From Isosphaeraceae bacterium EP7 (lineage in GTDB: Bacteria; Planctomycetota; Planctomycetia; Isosphaerales; Isosphaeraceae), in assembly GCA_038400315.1 (NCBI GenBank), contig CP151667.1, positions 3,607,174 to 3,671,173 on the forward strand: a DNA stretch of 64,000 bases, given 5' to 3'. How positions within the stretch are numbered: the first letter of the stretch is position 1; each line of letters opens with the position of its first letter. Both the position numbers and the translations under genes were made by a program. Positions 50,585 through 53,951 of the stretch are shown here, piece by piece. The notes beneath the pieces were generated by a model. That model was not told where the DNA came from, did not search any database, and was given only the letters and a program-made list of their open reading frames with translations.

Positions 50585-51931
50585 CTAATTCGTCGTTCCA
50601 AGGTCGAGGGCGGCGATCTGCTCGATGGCCGGGGCTCGCAAGGTGCCGAGGAAGTCGAGGAGGCCCTGGCGTTCGGCGGGGGGCAGCTCGTCGAAGCGGC
50701 TGGCTGAGCCGACTGCCTCGCCTCCGTGGGCCTTGATGGCGTCTTCGAGGGTTTTCGAGCGGCCGTCGTGCATGTAAGGGCCCGAATCGGCCACCCCCCA
50801 GAGGGGCGGGGTCTTCCATTCCAGGGCCGATTGGGCCACGGCGCCGAAGGGAAGTGTGCCGGGCGGGAGGTCTCCGGGGGAGGGGGGTGGCGCCCCGTAG
50901 TAGCCCGTGCTGGAGGCCAGCTCGACGCCCATCTCGTGCAGGAGCAGGTCGGAATAGAGGCCGCTGGCCGAGCCGAGGTCGGGCGTGTGGCAGTCGGCAC
51001 AGCCGACCTTGGCGAAGGCGCGTTCGCCCAGCTCGACGCTCGACCGTGACGAGACGGGGACGACCGAGCGCGGGGCGGGAAGGGCCCGTACGTAGTCGGC
51101 CATCAACTCGCACTGGGCGTCGGTCAGGTCGGGCCTGGCGGATTTGGGCATGTGTGCGGGGCTGGCCAGCGAGATGGCCTGCGGGCGGCTGGGGTTGGAC
51201 AGGCCCAGCTCATTGGCGCAGGCGGCCCGGACGAAGTCGCCGAGGGTGGCGAATTCCCCCTTCCAGCCGAACCGGCCGATCCGGCCGTCGACGAGCCGGG
51301 CGACGCGGCCACGGACATTGGGGTCGAGGGCCCCGTTGAGGCCGACCAGCCGCGCGGCGGAGGAGTGTTCGCGCTGGTGGGCGATGATGGTCGAGTCGGT
51401 GACGGCGTCGATGATCCCGTCGCCGAAGAGGGCCGGCGTGTTGCGCTGGGTGATGAGGGCCGCGGCGGCGGACGCGGTGCCGGAGAGGTTCCGCGCATTG
51501 ACCTGCTCCAGGGGCATCCAGGGCTTGGAGGGCAGGGTGGGGTCAACCTGCGCCATCGTCTCCTGGAACTCATCGGAGACGGAGTGGCGGTGGATCACGC
51601 CGATGGGAGGGCGTGGGTCGCCGGGCTTGGGGGCGAGCAGGCCGTAGACGGTGACGTTCTTGTCGACCGTGCCGCCGCCGCCGGCCCCGCCCTGGAAGTG
51701 GCACTCGACGCATGAGCGGGCGTTGAAGACCGGCCCGAGGCCGTCGCCGCCGGTCAGCCGGTCGCCGGCGGTCCAGTCGCGGCGGAAGAGGATCGAGCCG
51801 GCGCGGGCGGAGTCGGCCCTCACCGTCTTGGGGCCGGGGGTCAAGCCCCACTCGGCCAGCTTAACGAACGGGGCCAGCCCCAGGACCAGGGCCACCCCGT
51901 GAACGGCGCGCAGGCGGACACGCACGGCCAT
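50585..51931 (-). CDS. DUF1111 di-heme oxidoreductase
   Basis: An exported c-type cytochrome of 448 aa in the di-heme oxidoreductase (thiol oxidoreductase-like) family. It has a short signal/anchor and heme sites CVECH (in GPVFNARSCVECHFQGGAG) and CADCH (in GCADCHTPDLGS), followed by the C-terminal block PLWGVADSGPYMHDGRSKTL, conserved in the family. The electron partner is unknown. It is 151 nt downstream of the BlaI gene on the same strand and might be cotranscribed with it; no BlaI-type operator was seen in that gap. Confidence 0.9.
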   Translation of the reverse strand: MAVRVRLRAVHGVALVLGLAPFVKLAEWGLTPGPKTVRADSARAGSILFRRDWTAGDRLTGGDGLGPVFNARSCVECHFQGGAGGGGTVDKNVTVYGLLAPKPGDPRPPIGVIHRHSVSDEFQETMAQVDPTLPSKPWMPLEQVNARNLSGTASAAAALITQRNTPALFGDGIIDAVTDSTIIAHQREHSSAARLVGLNGALDPNVRGRVARLVDGRIGRFGWKGEFATLGDFVRAACANELGLSNPSRPQAISLASPAHMPKSARPDLTDAQCELMADYVRALPAPRSVVPVSSRSSVELGERAFAKVGCADCHTPDLGSASGLYSDLLLHEMGVELASSTGYYGAPPPSPGDLPPGTLPFGAVAQSALEWKTPPLWGVADSGPYMHDGRSKTLEDAIKAHGGEAVGSASRFDELPPAERQGLLDFLGTLRAPAIEQIAALDLGTTN

Positions 51932-52082
51932 CGGTCGTCCTCCTCGTCTCGGATTCGTTCGGAAAAGCGGAAATACGCGGATGATGCGTCGAATCGATGG
52001 GCGAGATGGCTCCGCCGGGCGATCCATCGGGATCGGCCGGTCGGGGCGGGGCTTCCGTTGAAAGGGCAGTGGCTCGGGTCGA

Positions 52083-52505
52083 TCAGCCGGCCTTGGTGGG
52101 GCCCTTGGCGTCGTCGGACTGGCCGGAGCCGGTCATCTGCTCGAGCACGGCGCGGACCTCGCTGGCCTGGCTGGCGTCGAGCGGGTGCGACTTCAGGAGG
52201 TGCAGGACGAGCAGTCCGGGCTCACCCTGGTAGAGCTTGTCGACCAGGCTGTTGACCCGCTTCTGGCGGACTTCCTGGGCCTCGACGAGCGGCTTGTAGA
52301 CGAAGGCCAGCTCGCGGCGGTCGCTTGCAACGACCCCCTTGGTCTCCAACCGGTCGAGCAGCGTGGCGACGGTGGCGTAGGACCACTGCCTGCCGGCCGC
52401 CTTGAGGTCCTCGAGCGCCTCGCGCACGGTGGCCTGGCCGCGTTCCCAGAGGACCTTGAGGACGTCGAGTTCCGAGTCGGGGATGGTCGGCGGTCGCTTC
52501 GGCAT
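52083..52505 (-). CDS. BlaI/MecI/CopY-family repressor
   Basis: A 140-aa winged-helix repressor. The N-terminal domain (PTIPDSELDVLKVLWERGQA, TVREALEDLK, WSYATVATLLDRLETKGVV) is typical of BlaI/CopY and the C-terminal helix LLVLHLLKSHPLDASQ dimerises. These repressors leave DNA when cut by a sensor protease (BlaR1/MecR1) or when metal is exchanged (CopY). No Cys-x-Cys metal tail is present, so release by proteolysis is more likely. It is divergent from an M48 peptidase gene, across two candidate operators. Confidence 0.94.
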   Translation of the reverse strand: MPKRPPTIPDSELDVLKVLWERGQATVREALEDLKAAGRQWSYATVATLLDRLETKGVVASDRRELAFVYKPLVEAQEVRQKRVNSLVDKLYQGEPGLLVLHLLKSHPLDASQASEVRAVLEQMTGSGQSDDAKGPTKAG

Positions 52506-52584
52506 GTCCGGCTGTCCGTCGTCGGCGGGCTCGAGAACGCGGGGCGTAGCCCGGTCGAGCCCGGCGATTGGGTCGTGGGAAGGA

Positions 52585-52614
52585 TTGACCTTCGATCTTG
52601 ATGTCGGGTATCCT
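52585..52614 (+). promoter_or_regulatory. Candidate promoter of the M48 peptidase gene
   Basis: TTGACC (52585-52590) and TATCCT (52609-52614) with an 18-nt spacer. Transcription would start within operator 1 (52617-52626). Confidence 0.5.
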
Positions 52615-52638
52615 AAGACACTTGTCGCATGAGGTCAA
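52610..52638 (-). promoter_or_regulatory. Candidate promoter of the BlaI gene
   Basis: On the minus strand TTGACC (52638-52633) and TAGGAT (52615-52610) are 17 nt apart. Operator 1 lies inside the spacer. Confidence 0.55.
52617..52626. promoter_or_regulatory. BlaI/CopY-type operator 1
   Basis: GACACTTGTC fits the K-ACA-NN-TGT-M cop-box core exactly. It lies in the spacer of the BlaI promoter and at the start of the M48 transcript. Confidence 0.65.
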
Positions 52639-52648
52639 CCCTGCTTCG

Positions 52649-52658
52649 GACAGTTGTC
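52649..52658. promoter_or_regulatory. BlaI/CopY-type operator 2
   Basis: GACAGTTGTC, a second perfect K-ACA-NN-TGT-M site, 32 nt from operator 1 start to start (about three helical turns), so both sites face the same side of the DNA. Confidence 0.65.
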
Positions 52659-52718
52659 TGAAATTTCGGGCGGGTTGGTGCGCCGGTGTGGTTGGCCGTT
52701 GGTTCGAGGTGGTGGCCG

Positions 52719-53951
52719 ATGGGGCGAGCGGTCACCCCGCGCGGGCTGCCATGTCCGGCGTGCGGCGGGCTCCTTCTGCCGATCCCGGGCGGGTCGCCCG
52801 ACCGCCCCCGGCTGGCCTGCGCCGGCTGTGGAGAGTCGTTTCGCGCCCGCAGGCGAGGCGACCCCGCCGGTGCCCCCGTGGCGGTGCCCATCGGCCACCT
52901 CGGCCTGGTCTGGCGTGGCCTGGTCCTGCGGGGCCTGGAAATTTTCTATCGATTGGGGCTGTGCCTGGGTGGTCTGGTCTTGTTCGCCTGCGGCGGCTTC
53001 ATCCCGGTGCTGGGGGCCTGGCTGCGCGACGAGATCGACACATGGAGCGGCGCCGTGGAGGTCATGGGCGGGGTTCCGGTCGTCGCCGACGCGGCGCATG
53101 CCGACGCCGACCTCGGGCCGGTCCTTGCGCGTGCCGACGCGACTCCGCTGTTCGAGGTGGTCGCCGACGTGTCCAGGCAACTCGGGGCGCGGCCGCCCCG
53201 CGAGCTGAGGCTGACGTATCTGCCCTGCTGCGGGGTGCTCGCCTGGCGTCGGTCCGAGGCGATGGTGGTCGGCCTGCCGCTGCTAGACGTGCTTGACGTG
53301 GGCGAGCTGCGCGCGATGCTGGCCCACGAGCTCTCGCACCTGGCCAACGGCGACGCGACCCGCGCCGCGGCCTCGGCCCGGTTCGTCGAGGCCCTGGGCC
53401 GTTCCTTGCGCTCGGGGGGCCCGCGCCGGGGGCCGCTGGCCGCCTGGGCGCGAGCCTGTCATCGCCTGGCTTCCCGCCTGATCGGCCCGATCGCGCTGGG
53501 GCAGGAAGTGCGCGCCGACCGCGCCGCGGCGACGGTGGCCGGCGGGACCGCGGCGGCCTCGGCCCTGGTGAAGGTTGCCATCGTCCAGCCCCTCTTCCGC
53601 GAGGTCCTGGCCTACTACGATCCCGATCGCCCCGACTTGCCCGACCTCTACAGCTTCTTCAGGGCCTTCTGGCATCGCCTGCCCGAGCAGTCGAAGGCCG
53701 CCATGCGGGGGAATCTGATCGCACCGGCCCAGGGCGTGGCCCCCGACTCCGCCGACGACCCGACCCATCCGCCGCTGATCGACCGCCTTCGTCTCTTGCA
53801 GACCTATCCGGACACCCCGGGCAGCGAGGCCGACCACGCGCCGGCCGCCCTGACCATCGGCGACGCGGAGGCGCTGGGCCAGATGCTGCACAATCGCCTC
53901 TTCTCCCTGCCCGCCGTCGAGCCGACGGTGTACCACCGGGCCGGGTCATGA
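52719..53951 (+). CDS. M48-family metallopeptidase with N-terminal zinc ribbon
   Basis: A membrane-anchored peptidase of 410 aa. The N-terminus has a zinc ribbon with Cys12, Cys15, Cys34 and Cys37. A membrane segment follows at about 70-98 (LRGLEIFYRLGLCLGGLVLF). The catalytic HELSH is at 203-207 and the third zinc ligand is in QEVRADRAAA, as in M48 peptidases. The C-terminal half carries a PPLIDRLRLLQ segment also known from M48 proteins (the DxxHPPxxxRI region). The ATG at 52719 is chosen since the GTG at 52686 only adds unrelated residues. It is divergent from a BlaI repressor, so it could be the protease that inactivates it; this is inference. Confidence 0.87.
   Translation: MGRAVTPRGLPCPACGGLLLPIPGGSPDRPRLACAGCGESFRARRRGDPAGAPVAVPIGHLGLVWRGLVLRGLEIFYRLGLCLGGLVLFACGGFIPVLGAWLRDEIDTWSGAVEVMGGVPVVADAAHADADLGPVLARADATPLFEVVADVSRQLGARPPRELRLTYLPCCGVLAWRRSEAMVVGLPLLDVLDVGELRAMLAHELSHLANGDATRAAASARFVEALGRSLRSGGPRRGPLAAWARACHRLASRLIGPIALGQEVRADRAAATVAGGTAAASALVKVAIVQPLFREVLAYYDPDRPDLPDLYSFFRAFWHRLPEQSKAAMRGNLIAPAQGVAPDSADDPTHPPLIDRLRLLQTYPDTPGSEADHAPAALTIGDAEALGQMLHNRLFSLPAVEPTVYHRAGS

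Follow-up and report, generated by a model that had tools for sequence, protein, structure and literature searches.

BlaI repressors are familiar chiefly from resistance to beta-lactams, in which they are inactivated by BlaR1 or MecR1. What, then, is the role of a BlaI-type repressor whose gene has no such partner and stands back to back with the gene of an M48 protease? This question is raised by an intergenic region in the genome (7.2 Mb) of an Isosphaeraceae planctomycete, found in the 64-kb stretch of DNA that was analysed as a whole and is called the window here. No M56 (BlaR1-like) gene is present at this locus, the nearest one being more than 400 kb away. We consider, with a probability of about 0.78, that the locus is a compact autoregulated divergon, in which BlaI would repress both its own gene and the M48 gene via shared operators. 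No description of such a BlaI-M48 arrangement was found in the open-access texts searched.

Two palindromes and two predicted promoters

The blaI and M48 genes are divergent, and the region between them holds two palindromes and two predicted promoters, as follows (window coordinates).

52083-52505, minus strand: blaI, BlaI/MecI-type winged-helix repressor of 140 aa (PF03965, E=1e-27)
52585-52590, plus strand: predicted M48 -35 box, TTGACC (promoter consensus scan; same offset in relatives)
52609-52614, plus strand: predicted M48 -10 box, TATCCT (promoter consensus scan; overlaps the blaI -10 box of the opposite strand)
52610-52615, minus strand: predicted blaI -10 box, TAGGAT (promoter consensus scan and family conservation)
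52617-52626, no strand: operator 1, GACACTTGTC, inside the blaI promoter spacer and covering the predicted M48 start point
52633-52638, minus strand: predicted blaI -35 box, TTGACC (promoter consensus scan and family conservation)
52649-52658, no strand: operator 2, GACAGTTGTC, just upstream of the blaI -35 box and in the predicted M48 leader
52719-53951, plus strand: M48-family metallopeptidase of 410 aa (PF01435, E=1.3e-9; start shared with relatives)

How are these elements fitted into such a short region? On the minus strand the blaI promoter reads TTGACC-N17-TAGGAT, and operator 1 fills much of its spacer. On the plus strand the M48 promoter reads TTGACC-N18-TATCCT, and operator 1 begins 2 nt past its -10 box; the predicted M48 start point, 6-8 nt past the -10 box, is therefore inside operator 1. 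Operator 2 is separated from the blaI -35 box by 10 bp on the upstream side and would occupy about nt 28-37 of the M48 transcript, and the predicted leaders are about 98 nt for both genes. The palindromes are flanked by TAA/GCA at operator 1 and by TCG/TGA at operator 2. The positions and sequences of both operators and their start-to-start spacing of 32 nt, as given in the first-pass annotation, proved exact when checked base by base. The two divergent promoters that it had placed here are also exactly the two sigma-70-like promoters returned by an independent consensus scan of 52400-52800, which gave 0.0 +/- 0.1 in shuffles. As for the start of M48, ATG 52719 is probably the one used rather than GTG 52686, because relatives have an MGRA-like start there. 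Directly downstream of blaI, at 50585-52027 on the minus strand, lies a di-haem oxidoreductase / cytochrome c peroxidase-like gene (PF06537), a relative of which is also found downstream of blaI in several other genera; it is possibly in the same operon as blaI.

Conservation in Isosphaeraceae

A blaI orthologue, one per genome and 50-85% identical, is found in 41 of 45 genomes of the family, Singulisphaera acidiphila, Paludisphaera soli, Aquisphaera insulae and Tautonia sociabilis being named relatives with the locus. Upstream of it, TTGAC-N7-GACANNTGTC-TTAGGAT occurs in 39 family genomes, operator 1 being exactly GACANNTGTC in 38 of these 39. If the 39 genomes are aligned on operator 1, the half-sites reach 1.98 bits on average, against 0.44 for the central NN, where nine different dinucleotides are used, and 0.14-0.26 for the flanks. 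TTAGGAT is nearly invariant (mean of 1.89 bits) and the TTGAC columns give 1.35-2.0 bits, while the seven bases between TTGAC and operator 1 are mostly variable. Such a column pattern is what one expects of an operator with two-fold symmetry that is bound by a dimer and kept at a set place within a promoter. Half-sites and both promoters are thus selectively conserved across the family, and the conservation of the layout in relatives makes it very likely that the regulation is real. The element travels with the blaI orthologue across 19 genera: of the 45 family genomes, 38 have GACANNTGTCTTANNNT, invariably at blaI; elsewhere it turns up at 6 places in total, versus 4 in a reversed control, and the full TTGAC-N7-operator-TTAGGAT pattern was seen in none of 293 other Planctomycetota sampled. 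It had been proposed that one operator serves two divergent promoters and that BlaI is the likely ligand; both proposals find support, operator 1 being conserved together with the -35 and -10 boxes in the 39 genomes.

Two kinds of exceptions were met in the family. In one genome (G040, locus L082), operator 1 upstream of blaI has degenerated to GACAAACGTC, operator 2 (GACAGTTGTC) being preserved; this natural variant is of use for weighing the share of each operator. Contigs of metagenome-assembled genomes titled Candidatus Kuenenia (L199-L201) group in the same family and carry a blaI about 50% identical, without the operator; the species title may be wrong for them.

Operator 2 is less widespread. 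Thirteen genomes carry it without a mismatch and 1 more with a single mismatch, at a spacing from operator 1 of 32 nt in 8 genomes, 33 nt in 4 and 34 nt in 2. Its distance to the blaI -35 box, 20-21 nt, is steadier than that to operator 1. The phasing of the two operators by three helical turns, which had been suggested from the 32-nt spacing, therefore holds for this genome and is approximate only in relatives with 32-34 nt, since a spacing of 34 nt would turn operator 2 by about 70 degrees relative to 32 nt.

Does operator 2 have something to do with M48? It is to be noted that the M48 orthologue is found only in genomes having the blaI orthologue (36/36). Operator 2 is exact in 13 of the 21 genomes in which M48 is adjacent to blaI, versus 0 of the 16 in which M48 is further off or elsewhere, and, at an unchanged offset, 12 of the former 21 have the exact M48 -35 box, as do again none of the 16; neither gave any match at control offsets. 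TATCCT, present in 18/21 and 10/16, respectively, is not diagnostic alone and was dropped as evidence for the M48 promoter, being largely dictated by the blaI -10 box on the opposite strand. Relocated M48 genes have no ACANNTGT core within about 600 bp upstream, and control of M48 by BlaI would therefore be dispensable. The adjacency pattern, taken with these coreless relocated genes, speaks for the M48 promoter being genuine and for operator 2 taking part in its control. The shared control of M48 that had been claimed is supported in so far as operator 2 and the M48 -35 box are fixed where M48 adjoins, and it does not extend to a fixed property of the family, since a relocated M48 goes without the site. 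The link between operator 2 and adjacency represents a single evolutionary event, because adjacency changed only once on the BlaI+M48 tree; this one independent pair has no power to separate adjacency from ancestry. Operator 2 is also missing or degenerate in five M48-adjacent lineages (G014, G023/G024, G004, G011 and Singulisphaera G037/G038, degenerate in the last two genomes). Among the named relatives, Tautonia retains both operators, Singulisphaera acidiphila has a degenerate operator 2, and in Paludisphaera M48 has moved away.

The repressor, the protease and known systems

To what kind of BlaI does this repressor belong? It matches PF03965 (Penicillinase_R) with 97.2 bits (cut-off of 22.6) and, over its full length, the profile of S. 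aureus BlaI (1sd4/1xsd, E=3.8e-21) and also MecI (1okr/1sax). The structures 1xsd and 1sax are complexes with the operator; the repressor is homologous to proteins solved on TACA/TGTA operators, and the ACANNTGT core is present at its own promoter as in the BlaI/MecI/CopY family. It stays below the NCBIfam cut-offs for BlaI, MecI and CopY, scoring 69.8 bits with TIGR02698 (CopY/TcrY) against a cut-off of 121.95. There is no cysteine in its 140 aa; therefore it has no CXC metal motif and is not CopY.

BlaI-family genes number 11 in the genome. Of the ten others, nine are followed on their own strand, at no more than about 1 kb, by an M56 (BlaR1-like) gene, and ACANNTGT is absent from the 300 bp upstream of all ten. 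Judged from these sequences, the present BlaI, although of the same repressor family as those in the BlaI-M56 pairs, forms a lineage apart that lacks M56 and has an operator of its own, because 9/10 paralogues are paired with M56 and 0/10 carry the core. Its closest paralogue (L094, C1:1686725-1687126), 31% identical, is the only other one without M56 nearby; the 150 nt upstream of it contain TTGACTTCTCA-GACTGGTTGTC-TTAGCCT and, beyond this, GACAATCTGTC, an arrangement of promoter and operator resembling the present one, with a palindrome of 11 bp. The M56-paired genes (L095-L103) show diverse upstream palindromes, such as GCGTTCATTTGAACGC and GTAGTACTACTGTCCATAGTA, and this diversity suggests that each BlaI in the genome has its own operator.

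The M48 protein matches PF01435 with 38.6 bits (cut-off of 20.3). It has a predicted active site, HELSH, with a conserved HExxH and a downstream Glu, and H203, E204, H207 and E263 are invariant in 22 relatives. Its N-terminus carries zinc-ribbon-like paired CxxC motifs, and one membrane helix is predicted from a hydropathy peak. Since the N-side of this single predicted helix is rich in arginine, the positive-inside rule implies that the catalytic domain may face outwards, away from the cytoplasm. A sequence search against solved structures gave no matches, and the NCBIfam cut-offs for HtpX were not reached. Its AlphaFold2 model (pLDDT 83.9) found no match under E 0.001 in Foldseek; by VIA-align, in which Z under about 8 is not telling, it best matched Ste24/ZMPSTE24, BepA and the metalloprotease part of BlaR1 with Z of 9-11. 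The fit to BlaR1 (8ext) has Z 9.3 and rmsd 3.7 over 182 residues, and Ste24 and BepA fit equally well or better. Thus the protein is like Ste24/ZMPSTE24, HtpX and BepA in its HExxH gluzincin core (PF01435), and Ste24/ZMPSTE24 and BepA are among its best fold matches; what is different is the extra N-terminal zinc-ribbon-like part and the single predicted membrane helix.

Is the locus, then, a mec/bla divergon in a planctomycete? It resembles those divergons (mecA / mecR1-mecI, blaZ / blaR1-blaI, mecD) in the repressor family, in the ACANNTGT core, and in overlapping divergent sigma-70 promoters with an operator placed for one dimer to block both. For mecD of Macrococcus caseolyticus, it has been proposed that a single MecI dimer, bound to one operator in overlapping divergent promoters, represses in both directions (PMC5341023). 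In contrast to the mec/bla divergons, the locus lacks BlaR1/MecR1 as well as any beta-lactamase or PBP2a gene, and it is the gene of the repressor that stands divergent to that of an M48 protease. Compared with the mec/bla operator consensus, [A/G]NATTACA[A/T]NTGTA[A/G][T/G]NT (PMC5341023), the outer bases here are G...C and not T...A and there is no AT-rich extension, so that the full consensus is not matched. The locus is therefore not filed as a mec/bla divergon, because the three defining features tested are absent from it. With the CopR/CopY cop operators (PMC7253601) it shares the 10-bp core KACANNTGTM, and promoters with two operators occur there too. However, neither site here fits their 16-bp consensus RNYKACANNTGTMRNY (PMC7253601) and the repressor has no cysteine for a CXC copper motif; the cop-box label that the palindromes had received is therefore only partly apt. 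No copper-export gene was recognised among the neighbours examined. Hence the regulatory layout seems to be of a known type, and the M48 partner and the BlaR1-less locus would be new. What makes this worth attention is that nearly the whole family retains one BlaI orthologue with a strictly conserved self-operator, without BlaR1 in the locus and with M48 as a neighbour; it provides a well-defined regulator, operator and candidate target in planctomycetes, by which BlaR1-less induction of BlaI becomes directly testable.

A proposed mechanism and its alternatives

How might such a divergon work? A BlaI dimer at operator 1 would block polymerase at the blaI promoter and at the M48 start point, and occupancy of this operator would keep both genes low. 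A second dimer at operator 2 would tighten the repression, mainly of M48. Both genes would then rise together on a signal whose last step is probably that BlaI is removed or released. That BlaI is the protein bound, that it represses by binding and that operator 2 contributes are steps that we infer from conservation and homology.

It is easy to postulate that the element autoregulates blaI only, with M48 expressed constitutively or from another promoter, whereas operator 2 and the promoter on the plus strand would be incidental or act for blaI alone. The persistence of operator 1 where M48 is gone, the relocated M48 genes without the site, the kept distance of operator 2 to the blaI -35 box, and a TATCCT partly forced by the opposite -10 box would all agree with this. 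Yet operator 2 would then hardly be confined to M48-adjacent genomes, nor would the M48-strand TTGACC stand exactly at 17-18 nt in 12 of them while failing in all 16 others and at all control offsets, and we hold this explanation to be unlikely. Another regulator might bind the palindromes, for example a BlaI paralogue, of which the genome offers many, or an unrelated repressor, since palindromes are used by many regulators. Against this, the element tracks the blaI orthologue over the 19 genera and is nearly absent elsewhere in the genomes, the ten other BlaI genes lack the core, and the core itself agrees with BlaI/MecI/CopY sites; such a regulator is quite improbable. Chance is still less credible, to the point of being negligible. 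KACANNTGTM matches only the two operators in the window against 0.85 expected, a count unremarkable in itself, as at least 2 matches were obtained in 21 of 100 window shuffles. However, half-sites invariant over 39 genomes amid random flanks contradict a chance origin. In pattern searches of the whole genome, moreover, the core has 48 sites, no two of which except the operator pair are within 4 kb, and a simple estimate gives about 0.01 chance pairs up to 40 bp apart.

The divergon favoured here could be extended by a BlaR1-like feedback, in which M48 would destroy BlaI on a signal and its derepression would be self-reinforcing. M48 is the neighbour that would be co-regulated, with no M56 partner near, its model can be superposed on the membrane and metalloprotease part of BlaR1, and M48 and blaI co-occur. 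On the other hand, its catalytic domain would probably face away from the cytoplasm, a relocated M48 escapes control by BlaI, and no sensor domain is seen in the protein, all of which leaves the extension doubtful. A somewhat broader idea, for which we would claim only a modest chance, is that Isosphaeraceae have a BlaR1-less BlaI system in which the place of the M56 sensor as co-repressed partner is taken by the membrane protease M48, with a signal and a route of BlaI removal unlike those of the beta-lactam pathway, possibly via M48.

Does this BlaI have other targets? The first-pass annotation had called for a genome scan for the core near other genes. Among the 48 sites, TACAGTTGTA/TACAACTGTA accounts for 8 places, none of them at a BlaI gene. 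A wider regulon is not claimed, the composite operator/-10 pattern giving 6 extra places in 45 genomes versus 4 in the control. GACANTTGTC occurs at 14 places, of which 2 are the operators and at least 5 of the other 12 are inside plausible genes. Only one of these 12, C1:129039 (L046), has promoter-like surroundings: there, GACAATTGTC stands 17 nt after TTGACA, upstream of a prepilin-like DUF1559-type gene (named by eye from its N-terminus), which is a possible further target.
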